Below are positions 11,645-24,385 of a stretch of 64,000 nucleotides of DNA, piece after piece. Position numbers and translations under genes: made by a program. Under the pieces are notes generated by a model. The model saw only the letters and a program-made list of their open reading frames with translations. It did not search any database and was not told the DNA's origin. How positions within the stretch are numbered: the stretch's first letter is position 1; the number at the start of each line of letters is the position of its first letter. The stretch covers positions 22,541,193 through 22,605,192 of the forward strand of contig OX453279.1 in the NCBI GenBank assembly GCA_949710005.1, given 5' to 3'. Origin of the DNA: Ricordea florida (Eukaryota; Cnidaria; Anthozoa; Corallimorpharia; Ricordeidae).

Positions 11645-12718
11645 TCATTTGCTAGTATTTGCGTTGAAATCGTTAATGAGTCTGGGGCCTAAAAGGTTAG
11701 TAATGGGTTCCCAAGTCGCTTCTGAGAGTGCCACTGGGTAGTCTGACCATTTAACTAAATACTCAGTTTTTCCGTTTCGTGTACGGCTTTTTAAGACCTT
11801 CTCGGCCTTGAAAACGTCCTCGCTATCAATAGGTGTTTTTGAGAAAGCGTCCTGCCTATATATGTTCTCTGGTGTCGTGTCGGCTGAGTGAGTTGGGGTA
11901 TCGGCAGCGCTGTTCTCAGGGGTGTGTGCATGGTCAGTTCTAGGCGCAAAACTGTCTGATGGGAAGTCAACGTCAGAAAAATGCAGATCATCAATTACTT
12001 CTACAGGTGGCTCTATTGGTCTATCATTTGGATCAATATATGGCTTCATGCGGCTAGCGTGCACGATGGTGCTAACTGGTCTATTACTACAAGTACGTAG
12101 ACGATAGTGTACAGGGCTAACTTTGTCCACTGCCCTGTACGGGCCATGATAGTTATGCAATAGTTTCTTTGATAGCCCTTTTTTTCCTTTGGGAACGAAA
12201 ACCCATACCTTCGATCCCTCTACAAAGTCTGGCTGTTATGCTTGCCGATCGTAACATTCTTTCATCTTTTGTTGAGCGTGTGCGTTGTTGTCACGCGCCA
12301 TGTTCTGTGCTAACTCGATGTTTTTAACTATCCGACGCCGATGTTCGGCGATAGAACTAGCTGGATCCCCTGGGGGCAATAAACTAACATCCATGGGCAA
12401 TCTAGCTTCCCTACCATAAAGCAAATAAAACGGGCTCTCCCCTGTTGATTCTGAGGGTGAAGTTCTAAAGGCAAATAATGCAGCCGGCACGAAGGCATCC
12501 CAATCTTTTTGGTTTTTGCTTACAAACATAGATAATGTTTGGCATAGAGTGGAGTTCAGGCGCTCGACAAGGCCGTCCGTTTGGGGATGATAAGAGGTTG
12601 TATTCAAGTTTCTTAATGCTCTAAAGTTTGCATACCTCAGCAACTGACAAGAGGAGAAAGTTTGTCTCACGATCAGAGAGCAAGGTTCTAGGCGCCCCGT
12701 GTCTAGGAATGATTTCAT
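11645..12718 (-). pseudogene. Integrase C-terminal half with chromodomain
   Basis: One frame from 12,718 to 11,645 with an internal stop at 12,236-12,238. It contains the integrase [16 protein letters not shown] block, which holds the catalytic glutamate, and the [12 protein letters not shown] segment of Gypsy integrases. After the stop comes the GPY/F-type module (HNYHGPYRAVDKVSPVHYRL). A C-terminal chromodomain ends it (EKVLKSRTRNGKTEYLVKW, then ATWEPITNLLGP), with the aromatic positions that in chromoviruses bind methylated histone tails to steer integration. It overlaps the upstream frame at 12,621-12,718 but is shifted by one base, so one frameshift separates the second catalytic Asp from the Glu. 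Confidence 0.85.
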
Positions 12719-14440
12719 TTACCAGACGTTTTGCTATGGTTTCTGCATCGATAGATGGCACTGGAAAACGTTCTGGCCATTGAGTAAGATATTCGGTAAA
12801 CACAACAAGATATCTATTTCCGGACCACGTGACTGGAAGAGGGCCCAGGTAATCCACAGCTATTCTGTCACAGGTCCCGTCCACTGGTATAGGGAGAACT
12901 AGGGCACGAAGATTGTTCCTAGGCCTTTTCCGCGTAGCACAATCAACGCATGAGCGTACCCAACGTTCAGCGTCCCTGTACATACCCCGCCAGTAGAAGC
13001 GATCCTGGAGTTTCTCGTATGTCGTAAAAGTACTTAGGTGACCCCCCATTAGATCATCATGGGCATGAACCAACACCTCATATCGCAAAGGGGGAGATAC
13101 ATCTAATTGAGCGTGGTTGACCTTATGTCCCTTTGTAATGTGTTTGTCTAGGTGGTACAGTATCCCATTATCATCGAGAAAGTACACATCTTCTGCCAAT
13201 AAAACACGCCTGGCGCGAGTGTTATCTGCTGGTAAAAGCTCACTTTCTAGGTAATCAATAATTTCGCCAATCTCGTGGTCTTCCCGTTGAAAAGCATGGA
13301 TCTGGTCTGTTTGTAACCATGCACACGATAAAGCATTGAGACTACAGGTGCCATAAGGGCGACGAGAGAGTGCGTCCGCATTGCCATTGGAAATTCCTGG
13401 CCTATGAATGATTTTAAAATCAAACTGCTGAATAAGTAATAACCAGCGTGCAATACGGCCCGTGGGGTCTTGCACTGACATAAGCCATTTGAGAGCGCTA
13501 TGATCTGTATGTACATAGAATTTTCGTCCATATAAATATGATTGAAAACGTTTTATGCCATCAATAATTGCACTGTAGTTGCGCTCTGCCGCATTGAAAT
13601 CTTTACCTGCATAAGCTACTACTGTTTCCCTTTTATCTATGTTTTGACCTAGCGTTATTCCGATGCCCGTTTGGCTAGCATCAGCATTCAGATGAAAAGG
13701 CTGAGTAAAATCTGGATAAGAAAGAATTGGTGCAGATATCAGAGCATGTTTGAGCGTTTCAAAAGCTTCCTGACAGTCATCCGTCCATTCGAATTTAACA
13801 TGTTTACTCGTTAGTTTATTCAGAGGTGAAGCTATTTGTGCAAACCCTTTCACAAAACGCCTATAGTAGTTACATAAACCATGAAAGGCTTTGACACCAG
13901 TTGTATTGGTCGGAATTGGAAAGTCTTTCACTGCTTTAATCTTTTGAGGGTTAGGACTTAACCCCTCTGCTGACACAACATGGCCTAGATATTCTACTCT
14001 AGACTGGACAAAGTAACATTTGCTTGATTTTAAACGCATGTTAGCTTCTTGGAGGCGTTTGAATACCTTTTCCAAGTGTAGCAAATGATCGTCAAACGTT
14101 CGTGAAAAGATGATGAGGTCATCAATATATACAAGACAAATGTCCCATTCTAGTCCCCTTAGAGCATGCGTCATAAGCCTCTGAAATGTTGCCGGACTGT
14201 TGCAGAGACCAAACGGTAAAACGTTTAACTCGTATAGACCGTTGTGTGTAATAAACGCAGTCTTTTCCTTTGAATTTTCGATCTTAAATCTAGAGTACTG
14301 AACCATCTGGCCCCACCCAGGGCGTCTGGTGCTTCCGCTATCCGTGGAAGGGGATGGCTATCCTTCTTGGTAATAGTGTTTAATCTTCTGTAATTAACAC
14401 AAAAGAGCATGAACCCATCAGATTTCTTAACCAAAACCAC
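12621..14440 (-). pseudogene. Gypsy reverse transcriptase, RNase H and integrase N-terminal half
   Basis: The RT starts in the 14,440 frame (MVLVKKSDG, then YRRLNTITKKDSHPLPRI and FSTLDLRS) and continues after a frameshift in the 14,306 frame with KEKTAFITHNGLYELNVLPF. The catalytic block VYIDDLIIFSRTF lies near 14,100-14,140. RNase H follows (LNADASQTGIG, then HTDHSALKWL). Next is the integrase zinc domain (HDDLMGGHLSTFTTYEKL, then CVDCATRKR) and the first two catalytic Asp regions (VDYLGPLPVTW and LLSDRETNF). The RT has lost a few residues after TLDLRS where YWQ is usual, and Glu replaces the usual Gly after SDR. Decayed copy. Confidence 0.9.
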
Positions 14441-15014
14441 CGGGGCCGCCGATAATAAAGCTTGATGTAGCGTGGATAGAACAAATAGTGGGTTCCCTGT
14501 GGTTTTCCATAAGCGGAATGTCGAAAGTGTCCTGTGGTTCTACAGCCTGGTGTAGTTCTAACACATGGTCTTTTAAATCTATCTTAGCCTTGTAAGCTTC
14601 AAGAAAATCCCGTCCTAGGATGACGTCATATGCTAAACGTTCTATAATCAAAACTTTGTATGGATAAACCTTATCATTAATTGAGAAAGGCAATTCAATT
14701 TGTCGTAACACCGGTGTACTCTGACCATTAACTGCTGATATTGAAGTAATCTGTATATGCGTTGGTGGATGTTTAGTCCTTTGGGAAATTTGCCGCCAAA
14801 TATCTGCACGAATTACACTTATATCTGCCCCAGTATCTATCAAATAGGTAACTGGTTTACCATTGATGTGTCCCTCAAGTGATATGTTGCGTGGCGGGTG
14901 TGTTAAAGGAGTAGAGGCAAGAACCAGAAAAGAAATAAAGTGCTTATTTGGCTCAAGTGTCACGGACGTGTCAGCGGTAGATAGTGCAGGCTCATGCGGG
15001 ACTGTACTGTCCAC
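14427..15014 (-). pseudogene. Gypsy aspartic protease region
   Basis: The minus-strand frame gives a retropepsin-like domain: PVTYLIDTGADISVIRADIW carries the catalytic DTGA, and AYDVILGRDFLEAY matches the usual ILGRDFL segment near the end. It begins in the Gag-PR linker (VPHEPALSTADTSVTLE). It ends four residues into a glycine-rich linker (GGPGGFG) that overlaps the RT start in another frame. The protease itself looks intact although its surroundings are broken. Confidence 0.85.
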
Positions 15015-15215: not shown

Positions 15216-15518
15216 TTAGGGACGGGCCATTAGAAAAGTGATGGGGGAGGGGGGGGGGGTGGGGAAAAAAACAAAAAAAAAATTCATGCAAGGGAAAATG
15301 CCAAGAAAAAAAATTCATGCAAAGAAGAAGGTAAAAAAAAAATTCATGCAGAAGGAAGGTCCAATTGTGACTTTTTCACACGTAGTAAAAAAATATTCGT
15401 GCAGAGGGGCATATGAAACTCTTGCCATACAGCGTTGAACATTTGATACTCAGGAATCATACACGACGTAGATTACAGTCCGCATGCGCAGTTTCAACAT
15501 TCCGTTGAAAACTTAAAA

Positions 15519-16223
15519 ATGGCGGACCAAACGAAGCGTGAGAGGCGACCGCTAAAACGGCTTATCGACGATTATCAGGCAGTGTCGTTTAAAAAGAGAA
15601 AACCAAAACCTGCCAAAGACAATCAATTGTACGAAGTCGAAGTTGTAGAGGTGGATAAAAGCAAGAACCGAGTGAAAATCCATTACAAAGGTTTCGGTGT
15701 GGAGACGGATGAATGGCGGGACTTGAATGAAAATGCATTTCCTTTAGTAAGACTCGAGAAAGCACCTATCCCCGAGTGTAGTTCTCTTGTAGATAGAATG
15801 AACAGCTTTCATAGTCAAGTCTACAGGGAAGTAAAGCGCAAACTATGGTCTGGGCGTCGTGAAGATCCAGATGTAAGAATTGAAGTAAATGTCGATTTTG
15901 ATGTATTCAGTTCAGGGCTTGCTAAGACCGGAAAGAGGACTCAAGTAAGAGGGAGGGAGGTGTACTCAGTGGCTCATAATCATGATTTAGATGATATACT
16001 TGGATTGAAATGGAATGAGAGAATCTTTAATGAGAATGGTGATTTCGCTTATGTGGTAAATGGAACAGTTAAATATTGGATGACTAAAAAAAGAGAGATT
16101 TTAGAGTTTAAGTACATTGGAGGAAGGCTTGTAAGATCTGAGATTGAAGACTCGCACATGTTGGTGTTTACATTTGTTCGGGGAGATGGCAACAGAACAC
16201 AGTATCACAGTCAGTGTTTTTAA
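15519..16223 (+). CDS. Chromo-barrel/Tudor-knot-like protein, partner gene of the RAG1-like transposon
   Basis: An intact 234-residue frame starting AAAATGGCGG. Residues about 5-35 are basic (KRERRPLKRLIDDYQ, KKRKPKP) and could be a nuclear signal. Residues about 41-75 (YEVEVVEVDKSKNRVKIHYK, then GFGVETDEWRDL) fit a chromo-barrel/MBT-type fold, the YKGF...DEW signature of histone-tail readers. The remaining 150 residues (YSVAHNHDLDDILGLKWNER region) are not recognised. It converges with the transposase gene, with 336 bp between the two stop codons. By analogy with RAG2, whose PHD finger reads histones, it may be a targeting or regulatory partner; that is inference. The frame is open and undamaged, suggesting recent activity. 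Confidence 0.7.
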   Translation: MADQTKRERRPLKRLIDDYQAVSFKKRKPKPAKDNQLYEVEVVEVDKSKNRVKIHYKGFGVETDEWRDLNENAFPLVRLEKAPIPECSSLVDRMNSFHSQVYREVKRKLWSGRREDPDVRIEVNVDFDVFSSGLAKTGKRTQVRGREVYSVAHNHDLDDILGLKWNERIFNENGDFAYVVNGTVKYWMTKKREILEFKYIGGRLVRSEIEDSHMLVFTFVRGDGNRTQYHSQCF

Positions 16224-16559
16224 TTTGCATGAGACAAAATTTCTGATATTTAGATATTTAATTAATTGATCAATATAACAATCAGCTACACTGTATGGCT
16301 ACTGCTTGAGTATCCACTTTTGGACTTTGAAATAGAGCATATTTCAACAATATATCTATTGGACTCAGTTTTTATCAAACACTAATACACCGACTGTTGT
16401 ATGCAACAAGCCCCAAACTCTTAATGTCAGTTACATACACTGAAACACCAAGAAACAGTAAAATCATTGTTTTCTGATCATGACTTACAAACATTTTTTG
16501 TCTGGTAAAAAATTACTGATCTTGCTGAAATTTGCTCTATCTTGACCACCACAATTTTG
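16224..16559. other. Intergenic space between convergent genes
   Basis: 336 bp of AT-rich DNA between the two stop codons. No AATAAA signal stands out on either strand and no repeat is seen. Confidence 0.4.
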
Positions 16560-18833
16560 TTAGACACCTAGAGTTAATTTGCATTTGGGTGTCCATTTTC
16601 CATTACTGTTTACCAAGTGGGAACAGCAGGAAGGGTGGTCACAATTCATACAGCTGTTGGTACATGTCTTAATTGTGTGACCAACATTATAGCAGTTAGA
16701 GCATGTATAGCTACTCTTTGTCCTAACATAGCCACCTGCCTCAAGATATTGAAGTCTGTTTTTCTTAAGGAAAAGTTGTTTGATTGCATTAGCTCCTCTG
16801 TGGTTGGTGGATCGAAAATAGTCTTTGGATGCTCTGTCATTAAATTTTTCCATTCCTTGCTGTGTGTAATAGGCAATGTTTCTATATAATTTGAGAAACT
16901 CAGGAACATGAGCATTAAGGGCATGCATATATGGGGTGACATCCTTGGCTTGATATATGGCTAGGAAATTGTTAAACCAGCCCTGAACCTTGCTTTTAAA
17001 CTGCATAATTTCAGCATCAGAGGGAAAATCAAGTTTTAAGTCACCAATAATGTCCATGAAATCAGCCCAAAGGTCTTGAATGTTGTTACTGTTAATGTGA
17101 TTAGGAAGAAGAGATGAAATTTCAATGTTCTGAAATACTTTGAGTTTCTCTGGGCCCGTTAGATCTCTATATTCTAGTTTTTTGGATTCCTTACCAATAT
17201 GCCATTGAAAAGAAATGCCCATATTTTGAATAAATTTTTCATAGCCTGCCATATATTTATACTTATCTCTAGAAAATCCATCATTAAATGTCCCTTTCTT
17301 CTCAATGCTGTCCTGTCTTCTCAACTCCCTGATTAAAAGTTCAATTGAATTGTCTGAAATCCTTAGGAAAAGATGTAAAGTGTCAATAATAACATGATCA
17401 AGTGGAATGAATGAAAACAGAGGATCTTTTTTGCAATTATATTGTTTTGATTTGGCACATTTACTTATTTGTTCTAGTGTTCCTGCTCCCAAATTTATAT
17501 CAGTTAGAGACCATTGTTTTTCAGTGTCCCATCTTTGCAATCTTGGGCACTTGCACCAGATGCAGGCATAATCTTGATTTGCAGCCCCAAGGCCACAAAC
17601 ACAAGCTAAGAATTTCCAGTCCCCTCCCAGAAAGTACTCTATGTTATAAGTGTGGTTACTCACAGTGATTTTGTTTAGTAATGTCATTTCAGACCTGAGA
17701 TCAGCAAGACTCTGCAGTAGATTTTCATAAGTTTCATCTGCTTTGATTATAGCTAAAATGTAATTCCCTCTTTCACCCATTGCCACTTCTTTTTCATTAA
17801 GAATAGTAAATGTAAAATTCACTATTTTTAACCTTTTTCCTATGTTGGTCCCATCCCCACTTAATTTCACCTTAACTGTGTCTTCCTTCAAGTCCATTCT
17901 TTCTATTTGCCTTCTAAGACTTTCTTTAAATGATACTTGTACACCATCTGCTGCACCTGGAGTGGGGCTTAAATTCCACAAAGAATTCATTTCATTCATT
18001 TGCTTTGTCATTTTTGACAAGTTTGGGACATTTTTTGCCATTAGGGAGATCTCCCGCCAGGCCTCATTAGATACGTTAAACTTGTCTTTGATGTACAGCC
18101 ACATGTTAAGGTCATCTAACTCCTGGTCAGTCATCTCATGTTCTTCACTTTGTATGAAAGGAAGTTCTCCTTCCTCGACAAGACTGAAGGTCTCTGACTT
18201 ACCAGTATCCTCATTATGCACTTCAACTTTTGTGGCGACGTAACTATACAGACCAAGAAATGATAGGGATGTGTGACACTGTTCCTTCAATTGTTTCTTT
18301 ACACGAGACTGATGCTGTCTAGTGTATTGGCGAAATGATTTTTTCCTTGTCGGGCCTCTGGACATTTTCTGGGAATTCATTTGAACCACTTTTCTGGCCA
18401 ATCGCTTAAACCGTTTTTTGTAATATTCTTCCCTTTTTCCGGCCTTTTCCAACGCACTTTGAAGCTTCTCTTCGAGACGTATTCGTTTAACTGACTCCGC
18501 TGTCACGGCATCCTCAAGCTCCCTTTTCTCCCCTTGCAGTGCTTCGCATTGACTCTTCAATTTAATGACGTCCACTTCATTGTAAAAGACTTTAAATCTA
18601 TACTTCGGCCCCGTTTTCCACTTATTCACAAGCCTCTTTAAGGTGCTGCCTCCTAATTTGCTTGCCTTTTTGAACGCAGTTTGCATGGTTGATATTTTCT
18701 TTTTAAAAACATTGACGATCCTGCTGTTAGTCACGACATCGCCAGCACCCGATTCTTTTAAAATCCTTTTCACGATAGCTGCTATGACAGAATCGGCTCC
18801 TTCCCTCTCATAGCTTTCTTTCTCCTTAGACAA
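16560..18833 (-). CDS. RAG1-like DDE transposase
   Basis: An intact 757-residue frame. Residues about 1-75 are basic. About 88-160 is a charged coiled-coil-like region, followed by a KR-rich stretch. The core begins near residue 250. Seen in the sequence: D327 in LSGDGTNIG, D405 in FLGGDWKFL, C424/C427 in ACIWCKC, H637/H642 in YMHALNAHVPE, E662 in QQGMEKFN, and a C-terminal CX2CX3GHX4C motif (CSNCYNVGHTIKTC). Known for mouse RAG1: catalytic D600, D708, E962 and zinc ligands C727, C730, H937, H942. The spacings D708-C727 (19), H937-H942 (5) and H942-E962 (20) are reproduced exactly here. The CCGHC-type tail recalls the zinc motif reported in invertebrate RAG1-like proteins. I infer a Transib/RAG-superfamily cut-and-paste transposase. 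No RING finger precedes the core. Confidence 0.85.
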   Translation of the reverse strand: MSKEKESYEREGADSVIAAIVKRILKESGAGDVVTNSRIVNVFKKKISTMQTAFKKASKLGGSTLKRLVNKWKTGPKYRFKVFYNEVDVIKLKSQCEALQGEKRELEDAVTAESVKRIRLEEKLQSALEKAGKREEYYKKRFKRLARKVVQMNSQKMSRGPTRKKSFRQYTRQHQSRVKKQLKEQCHTSLSFLGLYSYVATKVEVHNEDTGKSETFSLVEEGELPFIQSEEHEMTDQELDDLNMWLYIKDKFNVSNEAWREISLMAKNVPNLSKMTKQMNEMNSLWNLSPTPGAADGVQVSFKESLRRQIERMDLKEDTVKVKLSGDGTNIGKRLKIVNFTFTILNEKEVAMGERGNYILAIIKADETYENLLQSLADLRSEMTLLNKITVSNHTYNIEYFLGGDWKFLACVCGLGAANQDYACIWCKCPRLQRWDTEKQWSLTDINLGAGTLEQISKCAKSKQYNCKKDPLFSFIPLDHVIIDTLHLFLRISDNSIELLIRELRRQDSIEKKGTFNDGFSRDKYKYMAGYEKFIQNMGISFQWHIGKESKKLEYRDLTGPEKLKVFQNIEISSLLPNHINSNNIQDLWADFMDIIGDLKLDFPSDAEIMQFKSKVQGWFNNFLAIYQAKDVTPYMHALNAHVPEFLKLYRNIAYYTQQGMEKFNDRASKDYFRSTNHRGANAIKQLFLKKNRLQYLEAGGYVRTKSSYTCSNCYNVGHTIKTCTNSCMNCDHPSCCSHLVNSNGKWTPKCKLTLGV

Positions 18834-19085
18834 GCTGTAAATTAGAAAGCTGCGAAAAAAAAGAAAAGGAATGCTATAACTAGAGGCACCGAATTAAAGG
18901 TTTATTTGGCCAGACAGCCGGCATATTTTATTTTAATGGGTCAAAACGCGTGGTCTACAATCGATCATTACCGAGTTTCAAGGTTTATACACATACAACT
19001 TCGCTTTCCTCCGTGCCATAGAGTATCACCCTATACATCATTGCACTACTACAGTAGAACCAAAAAACTTTTATCAAAAACTTAC

Positions 19086-19228
19086 TTGTTTATTTCATAT
19101 GTGAACGACGGTAGAGAATCGGCAGAAGACGACTGTTCCGAACCATCCAAGGGCCCAGTAGCTCTACAGCTATGAATGGAACACAGCGCCACCAGTATAA
19201 ACACGAACCAGTGAGACTTGAAGGCCAT
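19086..19228 (-). CDS. Signal-peptide exon inside the RAG1-like transposon
   Basis: On the minus strand ATG 19,228 (context CTATGGCC) opens MAFKSHWFVFILVALCSIHS, a classic signal peptide: short polar start, hydrophobic core, then C-R-A-T-G as a likely cleavage region. About 20 serine-rich residues follow, and the frame meets a consensus splice donor (CAA|GTAAGT, intron beginning 19,085). It lies between the transposase start and the right end of the element. No downstream exon is identified, so the product is unknown. It may be the first exon of a captured host gene or a chance frame. An upstream in-frame ATG at 19,522 exists but lacks a signal-like start. Confidence 0.4.
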
Positions 19229-19744
19229 AGAGCCGTGGCTTAATCGTAATGAATATTTATGAAACACACACGAAAATGCGCTAAATTGTGTACTCTTTTC
19301 GAATCTCGCGGTAACTAGTTGATCCCAGAATGCATTAGGTTGTTCTAGGCCCATTTTCCTCACCGGGTCCCTCAGGACGGTGTCTAGAGTCTTGCAGAAG
19401 CAAGTGACCTCCGTGGACATAACTGCCAAAAGGCGTGGATTTTTTTTAACTTTTGAGACCGAAGTTTCCAGCTTAACATGCAGTAAACATGTACGTTTCA
19501 GAAAGCGTAGGTAACAAACCATAAATCTTTATACGAAAATGACCCCAAACGAAAAACTATGAAAATCACCAATATTTTGGGTGAGCTTACTAGTGTGTGT
19601 GGTCATTAGAAATATGATAAGCCTTTTGTTAACAAAGAGTTTCACATGCACTTGAAAAAAAAATTCCTGCACAAGCAGTGAGCGAAAGAAAATTCCCCAC
19701 CCCCCCCCCCCCCTCCCATCACTTTTCTAATGGTCCGTCCCTTA

Positions 19745-21108
19745 GTTCTTTGCGTGTGGCCGCTAGTAAAAGGTATATGATATGCGGCAACTTTTGGTTC
19801 AAAAGACGATAATTCTCGTGGAAGTATTTGTGTCACATCTTCCCTTCCCAAGGGTTTTTCATGCTGAAAACTAGCCTGCGGCATATCACTGTTGGTGTAT
19901 GGATTATTGTATGCCGCTCTGGTTGGTTCCAGTACGCACATTTCTTGTTTGATCAATTGCATCATATCGCTTTTATTTAATGACCTATCCTGTGCATAAT
20001 GTGCTAGCGGTGCATCTTCCCTATGAAATGGCACCTTATACGCGGCTACCTTCTGTTCTTCTTTAGGTTTTAGTTGACTTAATTGCTTAAGTATTTCATC
20101 AGTTCTATCTATTGGCCTCTCGTCCGGAAGGGCTTCTTTCATTTTACGCGTGCGTTTCCGCTTCCAAAAGAGTTTTCGGTCGCTGAAGAACGGCGTAATT
20201 TTTCAGTCCCGGTAACAATCCGGTCAAAAAGTTTGTAACGCTTTCTCCCTCCATCAAATCTAAGTGCTGGCAGATTCTTCGAATATCCGACGCATATTGT
20301 TCAACAGTCTCACTAGGTAATTGCCTTTTATTCGCAAGCTGTGTTTTTAGTCGCCAAATATATCCGATTCTGTCCGAAACTGTTTAACAAGTTCTGCACA
20401 AAGTTGATCATAGCGTTTGCCGGCTAGATGCGGCGAAGACGAAAACCAGACTCGAGCTGGACCAGTTAACAGTACCGGCAATAGTTTGGTTTTCTGAAAT
20501 TCATTCAATTCTTTGTATGTTGCTACTAAATCTATTTGTGAAATAAAATCATTTACATCCATATCATTCTTCCCTGAAAACCTTGGGAACTTAATATCAC
20601 CAGAGCCTGAGGGAGATCTAGGAGTGTGTGATTTTTCCCATATTTTTGCATAACTAGCGAACTGCCGTTGTAATTGTGTAGCGTTGTATTCGTTTTGTTC
20701 TCTTATTTGTTTGGCGATTTGTTTATTTTGTTCAAGTAAGAGTTTCGAAAGCTCGTCAAAAGTTACAGACATTGTTGGTGGATTATTCCCGCTAATTTGT
20801 TCGCTATGTCCGCCTCCTTTTGGTAATTCGTCTTCTATATTACTAGGGTCTTCTGAAGTGGACATATAAGGGCGTTTCTGTAGAGAGGTTTTTTCCTTTT
20901 GTTTCACAGTTTCCTTCTTAGATAACTGTTGACAATTGCAATGTCCGTCGCAATATTCAGTTTGATTAGAGGTTAAGAATGTTTTCCCTTTTATAACCGA
21001 GCGTGTTTTAGCTTTAGGCAAGACAGGCGGTTTACCCTTCCCGGTCAAACGGGTCTTTGATCTTAACAGCACGTTGAATTTTGGCGAAAGCACGTTTTTT
21101 TTTAACAA
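19745..21108 (-). pseudogene. Gypsy Gag, N-terminal and central part
   Basis: The frame from 21,108 to 20,347 has a basic, low-complexity N-terminus, a Gln-rich helix (ELSKLLLEQNKQIAKQIREQ) and a retrotransposon Gag core (IKFPRFSGKNDMDVNDFISQ, then KLLPVLLTGPARVWF). A stop and frameshift follow. The 20,142-19,745 frame then continues with repeats of the type KVAAY.(I/V)PF..ED and RSLNKSDMMQLIKQE, up to the inserted element at 19,741. A diverged copy lies at 51,056-52,313. Confidence 0.8.
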
Positions 21109-22575: not shown

Positions 22576-24385
22576 ATCATGCCAGTAAAAATTATATACA
22601 AATGCTCAATTGTAAAGAAATAAATGAGTATTAAGGGCACTTGCTTGGGATAAAGGAGTTCTTGAAGCGATTTGTGTTCATACGAGGCGTGACGTAGGTC
22701 ATGGGGCGTCTTATTATATAGACACGAGTGTTTTACTGGAAAATATACCACTTGTAAAATTCATAAAACCTACATTTATGGTTTATTTTCCATAATCTCA
22801 CACGTGAGTTTATCGATGACATAATTTTGGGAATTTCCCTCCGAAATTCTTTTTGTCTATATAATAAAAAGAACATTACACGGCGGCTTGAAGATATGAA
22901 TTTTATTTTCTCGTGGCAAAAACAATATTTTACTCACTCGCTGCGCTCGCTCGTAAAATATTGTTTTGCCACTCGAATTAACAAATTGACGTCCGTTTTT
23001 TATGCGTCTGTCCTCTTATTGATGATAAATTGCGTCATAACATTGTCAAAGTGTTGTAGATCCACGAGCCGATAGGCGAGTGGATCTACAACAAACTTTT
23101 ACAATGTTATGACGCAATTTATCATCAATAAGAGGACAGACGCATAAAAAACGGACGTCAATTTGTTTTTTACAATAACAAAACGCGAAAAAGGTCAAAT
23201 GAAGACTTAAATGAAAAGAAAACGCAAGTAAACAGCAAGTAAACTCGAAAAATGCTGAATTTTATTTAAGGTTACGGAACAGGTTCGCGGGTGCGTTGCG
23301 CAAAACCATCCTCACGGGCGCGTAATTTTAGGAAACTACCTAAACCTATACATCATTTTAAAGCTTATAGAACCTAGAACGGTGTTAAAATGTTTTTAAC
23401 TTGCGAAATTCAATATTAAACGAGCTGCGATCAGTCAAGTGCAAATCGACCGATGCTTATAAATGCGGCAAACTCGCGTCGGATTTTGACCTTATCAAGA
23501 AAACAATGACTGCATGATACTCAGCAGATGTTTGTCTTCAAAAGTGTGTCGGGGATTTTTTAGATCAGCTTTCAAAACAAAGTTATTATAATTTAAAGTT
23601 GGTTGTCGAGCTCTTCTTGGATGGAGACAGCATTAGGACTTATATCTTCTAAACGAAAAAGAAATCGGCAAATCCCCGACACACTTTTAAAGACAAACAT
23701 CTGCTGAGTATCATGCAGTCATTGTTTTCTTGATAAGGTCAAAATCCGACGCGAGTTTGCCGCATTTATAAGCATCGGTCGATTTGCACTTGACTGATCG
23801 CAGCTCGTTTAATATTGAATTTCGCAAGTTAAAAACATTTTATCACCGTTCTAGGTTCTATAAGCTTTAAAATGATGTATAGGTTTAGGCAGTTTCCTAA
23901 AATTACGCGCCCGTGAGGATGGTTTTGCGCAACGCACCCGCGAACCTGTTCCGTAACCTTAAATTGACGCAATCAGGGCGCAACTATTCTCAATAACTTT
24001 TCTCGCCTTCTCATTGGCTTGTCACAACACGTGATACAATTTGATTGGGTAAAAATCTGACTGTTTGACAGCTCACTTATCACGCAAAAAAACCTTGCAT
24101 AAATTAAAATTGTATGTGTCTGTACTCTTATTGATGATAAAAATTAGCCAATCAGCGCGCGAGAATTCGCTCAGTTATTGTAAAAAATAAAATTCATATC
24201 TTCGCGCCGCCGTGTAATATCCTCTATTTATTTTATACCTGAGATTCCTCTTTTGGGATAACAGTGTTAGCAACTTGTGCCGAGGATATGACGTAATAGA
24301 ATTAAAAAGCGTATGGCATAGTGCCACGCGCCTGGCGTGCAATGTTCATAGACTGAACATGACTAAACCTGATTCGGAATAGATG
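22576..24385 (-). pseudogene. LINE 3' tail, split by palindromic elements
   Basis: 22,576-22,710 and 24,223-24,385 are homologous to the continuous LINE tail at 53,480-53,832 of unit 2. The coding sense is minus and corresponds to the C-terminal tail of a CR1/L2-type RT protein. In unit 1 the two parts are separated by 1.5 kb of palindromes, and frames are lost. Confidence 0.6.
22711..24222. repeat. Nested palindromic elements
   Basis: Present only in unit 1. A first foldback (22,711-22,868) begins TCTTATTATATAGAC and ends with the complement. Next to it an outer pair, ATTACACGGCGGC at 22,874 and GCCGCCGTGTAAT ending 24,215, carries AGATATGAATTTTATTTT inside each end. It encloses a near-perfect palindrome at about 22,981-23,168 (arms from CAAATTGACGTCCG). 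It also encloses a much larger one at about 23,268-23,962, with arms of about 320 bp starting TTAAGGTTACGGAACAGG. No coding capacity. Confidence 0.8.

Follow-up and report, generated by a model that had tools for sequence, protein, structure and literature searches.

RAG1 and Transib are the classic example of a transposase that became an immune recombinase, and it is an open question how transposition was given up for cleavage and end joining. Among described systems, RAGL (ProtoRAG) elements encode RAG1L together with RAG2L between terminal inverted repeats that begin CACTW and resemble recombination signal sequences (RSS). Transib elements have a single gene, and both kinds of element duplicate 5 bp of target DNA (PMC7204232). 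The CMC/CMCT clade (Chapaev, EnSpm, Mirage, Plavaka, ESTA and Lanisha) duplicates 2–5 bp (PMC12730594). Here we describe a transposon in a 64,000-nucleotide stretch of the Ricordea florida genome (contig OX453279.1, positions 22,541,193 to 22,605,192; the whole stretch is referred to as the window). It has a transposase with a predicted RAG1-core fold, a second gene and, unlike the systems above, no target-site duplication. An initial annotation of the window covered the transposase frame alone; it did not note the second gene, an upstream exon, where the element truly ends or that target-site duplications are absent. The element and its ends are placed as follows.

15410 to 19648, no strand: whole RAG1-fold transposon, 4239 bp, CAT...ATG ends, two genes
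15410 to 15421, plus strand: one element end, CATATGAAACTC; the same end is present in L021, a 98% identical copy
19637 to 19648, minus strand: other element end, CATGTGAAACTC

Element ends were defined from near-identical copies sitting in different flanks. A genome search for the family gave at least 69 matches, with 59 of 457 candidates scored, and 20 copies were fetched with wide flanks, making 21 with the window copy. Ends of the CATATGAAACTC type are carried by the window copy (with one change at one end), L021 and L022; CATATCAAAATC ends by L026–L028; CATT(G/A)CCAGAAATC ends by L030, L031, L033 and L034; and CATGGCCAGAAATCCGTGACAG ends by L036–L040, while CATATCAAACTT is the left end of L023–L025. 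The left end terminates in CA in 14 of 15 copies (L031 is the exception) and the right end in TG in 13 of 15, the exceptions being L031 and L027, where the terminal G is missing or changed. CA..TG termini are also found in RAGL and CMC/CMCT elements, whereas the family's CATATG, CATATC, CATTGCC and CATGGCC differ from the CACTW of RAGL. The end patterns used did not find the right ends of L023–L025 or either end of L029 and L035. The near-identical copies L023–L025 have about 6.3 kb in common past the point where their right end was expected, and no matching terminus was found on that side, which suggests a composite or longer variant.

The element inserts without target-site duplication. A flanking direct repeat of 3–8 bp was seen in none of the 15 copies with both ends (L023–L025, L029, L032 and L035, with one or both ends missing or truncated, were omitted from the count). 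Flanking matches of 2 bp in one of these copies (L034) and of 1 bp in four are about what chance would give, and the 2-bp match is contradicted by the empty site of L034. This empty site shows a change of 0 bp: 18 of the 19 matches spanning positions 1–500 are exactly 500 nt long, and the three that were read are gapless. At L021 one base was lost, since 16 of 17 matches spanning 1–500 are 501 nt long and an extra T lies exactly at the junction in all four relatives read, one of them the 500-nt match. Two bases were lost at the window insertion, which lies in a miniature inverted-repeat transposable element (MITE); all 12 MITE copies read have AA at the junction, and the filled site lacks it. 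The filled copy of L031 is 14 nt longer than its empty site (40 of 40 matches are shorter by this length). In the three matches read the 14-nt gap spans the junction, its best placement being 11 + 3 nt, and the element has lost its terminal C and G. No empty site was obtained from the left flank of L040 in L039. From the lack of duplication in 15 of 15 copies, together with empty-site changes of 0, −1, −2 and +14, we infer that the element is pasted in by host end joining and not by 5-bp strand transfer.

Near-identical copies, different flanks and sharp ends are all signs of mobility. Identity is 100% over 5437 bp between L036 and L037, indicating that the family has moved recently, and 99.9% over 3881 between L026 and L028. 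Proportions of non-synonymous (pN) and synonymous (pS) differences between the window copy and L022 point to purifying selection on both the transposase (pN 0.15, pS 0.78, 382 codons) and the second protein (pN 0.25, pS 0.70). Relatives with a named host were found in Oculina, Stylophora (protein 2 and transposase), Pocillopora, Desmophyllum, Dendronephthya, Paramuricea, Nematostella and the hemichordate Saccoglossus. The flanks of the L026 insertion look by eye like inverted copies of a tRNA-containing repeat, and this element therefore sits near the centre of a palindrome.

The transposase has the following parts.

16560 to 18849, minus strand: transposase exon 2; 757 amino acids (aa) listed from a TTG at 18833, plus five codons and one base to a putative acceptor at 18850–18852
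transposase residues 89–153: long helix (coiled coil)
transposase residues 237–706: RAG1-core-like region
D327, D405 and E662: catalytic residues
C424, C427, H637 and H642: zinc ligands
transposase residues 711–724: C-terminal CCGHC zinc knuckle

The open frame at 16560–18833 encodes the 757 aa on the minus strand, and the plus strand over the same span holds 38 stops. The frame is open and real, as the initial annotation had it, but its strand had not been given. The TTG listed as its start is mechanical, and the gene very probably begins in the upstream exon described below. D327, D405, C424/C427, H637/H642, E662 and the C-terminal motif were all located where they had been reported. The first six of these residues are identical in 79 of 79 full-length sequences, including the window protein, and E662 in 78, the remaining sequence having a gap. 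In a wider alignment of 38 rows, which takes in subfamilies L030, L035 and L036 (24, 25 and 23% identical to the window protein), the seven residues together with D484 and H487 are the same in every row (window protein included). The spacings D-19-C-3-C and H-5-H-20-E are likewise kept in 38 of 38 rows, and so is the clan feature of C(2)C and H(3-4)H placed between the second D and the E of the DDE triad. The RAG1L of the same genome has identical spacings (D323, C342/C345, H554/H559 and E579, read from the alignment). The RAG1 spacing of 19, 5 and 20 claimed at the outset was thus borne out across the family and in RAG1L, and, judged from these alignments, the agreement is not due to chance. 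The gap between the first and second D is 78 in the window transposase (327 to 405), against 108 by the RAG1 numbers that the initial annotation quoted.

The Cx2Cx3GHx4C motif at the C-terminus is present in 65 of 77 rows, 71 of which extend that far. It is real, but equals the ordinary CCHC zinc-knuckle pattern and is not RAG1-specific; the transposase profile gives weak matches, at E 0.035 and above, to the knuckles of retroviral nucleocapsids as well. In the distant subfamilies L030 and L036 a SAP-like tail takes the place of the knuckle, and SAP is matched by 3 of 38 family members. The loci L030–L040 (867 and 895 aa) keep a convergent partner gene despite this replacement.

Structure searches with a predicted model of the window transposase revealed the RAG1-core fold. 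HzTransib was among the fold matches, and no other DDE family gave a better match among solved structures; HzTransib was not among the matches of sequence-based searches. When compared with coral RAG1L by hhalign, the 38-row family alignment gave E 3.4e-6 (probability 88%, 375 collinear columns) and the 77-row alignment only E 4.8e-4 (probability 32%), and an unrelated control gave E 0.43. The family profile matched a PDB RAG1 chain at E 5e-5. In the reverse search of the whole genome with coral RAG1L, 8 of 15 rows at E 0.018–0.042 overlapped listed window-family places, a weak result, and the best match other than RAG1L had E 0.010. Predicted fold, profile comparison and, weakly, the reverse search therefore back the description as a RAG1-like transposase. 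The annotation would have been overturned by the lack of a RAG1/Transib match or by a better match to an unrelated DDE family; these searches were run and gave neither outcome. The annotation's further suggestion of a divergent lineage between Transib and RAG stays hypothetical, so that its interpretation is supported in part. A sequence search of PDB with the window transposase alone, scans of viral and prokaryote contigs and an NCBIfam search gave nothing useful.

The window transposase matched no Pfam family. Weak matches to PF12940 (RAG1) were present in 5 of 38 family members (best E 0.0012), and this was the sole transposase family recognised among the 25 of 83 Pfam families that were listed for family members. 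Genome-wide, PF12940 matched six places, three of them over the cut-off and none among the window-family places. With PF12940, the true RAG1L of this genome reaches 261 bits; this bona fide RAG1L (L056/P0206) has a RAG1L chain, 6b40, as its best PDB match (E 3e-149). Because the genome also holds this true RAG1L, the window transposase constitutes a lineage of its own within the RAG1/Transib/CMC clan. Two near-identical open RAG1L copies, with 969-aa frames 99% identical to each other, lie at G000:C15:3041933-3043807 (L056) and G000:C5:18269945-18271819, and may represent a true RAGL element that has recently moved or been duplicated.

The second gene of the window element lies beyond the 3′ end of the transposase gene.

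15519 to 16223, plus strand: gene of protein 2 (234 aa), convergent with that of the transposase; about residues 34–80 form a chromo-barrel/Tudor/MBT-like domain, with a further domain at the C-terminus

The protein 2 profile matched MBT, Tudor and chromo-barrel domains, and the partner is a chromo-barrel/Tudor-like protein, not RAG2. The Pfam families listed for 38 protein 2 members, 20 in number, included neither kelch nor PHD; the listed VIA matches of protein 2 contained no kelch chain either, although that listing is no test for kelch. The two genes are convergent in 10 of 10 close loci. At the distant loci L030–L040 the protein 2 profile gave no match, and the partner open reading frame was recognised by eye and by hhalign. 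The element is thus like RAGL/ProtoRAG in its RAG1-core fold, its D/D/E and CC/HH spacing, its convergent second gene, the Cx2Cx3GHx4C motif and its terminal dinucleotides, and unlike it in having a chromo-barrel protein as partner, with no RAG2-like partner found.

A further exon of the transposase gene was recognised upstream of the long frame.

19086 to 19228, minus strand: probable transposase exon 1, 47 codons, signal-peptide-like start and linker; donor CAA|GTAAGT; phase-2 join to exon 2

Splice signals and frame indicate that this exon is very probably joined to 16560–18849 on the minus strand. Each of the five close subfamilies has the donor CAA|GTAAGT ahead of its transposase frame, and the acceptor cag|C, with its phase 2 fit, was read in three of them (window/L021, L023–L025 and L026/L028). 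By eye exon 1 resembles a classical signal peptide followed by a linker that ends in a YEIN-like motif. Eight loci from four subfamilies were read without filtering, and exon 1 of L027 and L029 was recovered with a filter that is in itself selective for hydrophobic starts. In all six pairs compared, from four subfamilies, pN was lower than pS, and the ratio of non-synonymous to synonymous rates (dN/dS) is about 0.48 between the window copy and L022. No signal-peptide-like start was seen by eye in the printed frames of the 867- and 895-aa subfamilies. A conserved first exon of this kind, apparently present in five subfamilies (window and L021–L029), is odd for a nuclear enzyme.

The reading we favour, with a probability of roughly 60%, is that of a recently active two-gene cut-and-paste transposon of the RAG1/Transib/CMC clan, with RAG-like excision and a chromo-barrel partner, which is pasted by host end joining without duplication. 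The RAG1-fold DDE transposase, probably dimeric like RAG1, would recognise the CA..TG ends, in part perhaps through its C-terminal zinc knuckle, by analogy with CTT* of RAG1L (PMC7204232). Excision would proceed by RAG-like double-strand cleavage at these ends, presumably with a hairpin step. Protein 2 would occupy the place that RAG2L has in RAGL elements and probably tether the complex to chromatin. The blunt-ended excised element would then be joined into a target break, most likely by host end joining, with losses of 0–2 bp or short filler. The pasting step is modelled on the reinsertion of excised signal circles, in which a RAG enzyme cuts, end joining reinserts and the junctions are processed (PMC1820826). 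Signal-circle reinsertion is, however, a side reaction of V(D)J recombination that has RSSs as its targets, whereas the window family is heritable and multicopy and occupies sites without obvious shared sequence.

The main rival to host end joining is strand transfer by the transposase itself, with directly opposite attacks (0-bp stagger) and occasional nibbling afterwards. It agrees with the exact 0-bp insertion in L034 and the full conservation of the DDE triad, and with the terminal CAT/ATG, intact at 27 of 30 ends. Three of the four resolved sites are nevertheless inexact (−1, −2, and +14 with trimmed ends) and RAGL and Transib duplicate 5 bp (PMC7204232), and we regard this mechanism as unlikely, if the strongest competitor. 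Several points weigh against end joining as we propose it. With so many termini intact, end joining by itself would have to be rather clean; the empty sites resolved number only four, among the 20 fetched copies and the window; changes of −1, −2 or +14 could include variants of the parental host copy, the relatives of L031 being only about 90% identical; and hairpin excision, dimerisation, a signal peptide and the function proposed for protein 2 are all inferred.

Another alternative concerns kinship, and is compatible with the end-joining mechanism. The family could fall within the CMC branch (Chapaev, EnSpm, Mirage, Plavaka and similar) instead of being sister of RAG/Transib, and RAG1 and Transib would then be merely the members with solved structures; we know of no solved structure for a CMC family. 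C(2)C, H(3-4)H and CA..TG ends are common to CMC families (PMC12730594), which were compared by description, not by sequence. We find this placement doubtful, given that PF12940 is the sole transposase family recognised among the Pfam families listed, and that RAG1L is resembled both in the HVPE region and in the CTT*-type knuckle. Spy is grouped with PIF/Harbinger and ISL2EU (PHIS; PMC4482050), by description another DDE group; the window model is RAG1-like. A divergent true RAGL or Transib element that had lost its typical ends and duplications would account for the fold, the residues, the convergent two-gene layout and the CTT*-like knuckle, and the L023-type ends (CATATCAAACTT) are similar to the published protostome RAGL consensus, by eye only and with one gap. 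Such an origin is improbable, because the window protein lacks the PF12940 match that the true RAG1L of this genome makes so strongly, no kelch or PHD partner was found in the Pfam listings for protein 2, and a 5-bp duplication occurs in 0 of 15 copies. Short motifs alone could converge, but it is scarcely credible that an unrelated DDE transposase arrived at this motif spacing by convergence.

If host end joining does paste the element, a broader interpretation may be advanced tentatively, and we rate it a little below even. The family would add a third way of life to the RAG1 clan, that of a heritable transposon which is autonomous and lives by V(D)J-style cut-and-join: a RAG1-fold enzyme excises, host end joining pastes, a chromatin-reader partner evolved independently of RAG2, and the transposase precursor has a conserved signal peptide. 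RAG-type breakage coupled to end joining would then not be a vertebrate invention. A coexisting, recently active RAG1-fold lineage with no duplications and a different partner offers a natural comparison, which makes the question of how transposition was given up testable in cells, and the family may widen the clan. No RAG1-clan element lacking duplications was found in full-text searches of the open literature or in the parts consulted of PMC7204232, PMC9435367, PMC12730594, PMC10045372 and PMC1820826 (Repbase and subscription papers lie outside this scope), and within the same scope no publication was recognised as describing the window family.

The RAG1-fold element is nested in a MITE, which is in turn nested in a Gypsy element.

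15219 to 15409, plus strand: host MITE, first part, outside the RAG1-fold element; TTA duplication at 15216–15218
19649 to 19741, plus strand: host MITE, second part; TTA duplication at 19742–19744

A 57-nt inverted repeat belongs to the MITE and not to the RAG1-fold element. The MITE is abundant (40 places scored, including that of the window) and has G-runs, AATTCATGCA repeats and the TTA duplication; we presume that it may be mobilised by Harbinger. The Ty3/Gypsy element occupies 12621–15014 and 20347–21108 on the minus strand, split by the nested MITE and RAG1-fold element, and contains a gag-like frame, a frame that is protease-like by eye, and pol. Further along the window is an inverted repeat with arms at 23264–23558 and 23670–23964, each of 295 nt, 99% complementary and 111 nt apart, with smaller inverted repeats nearby.
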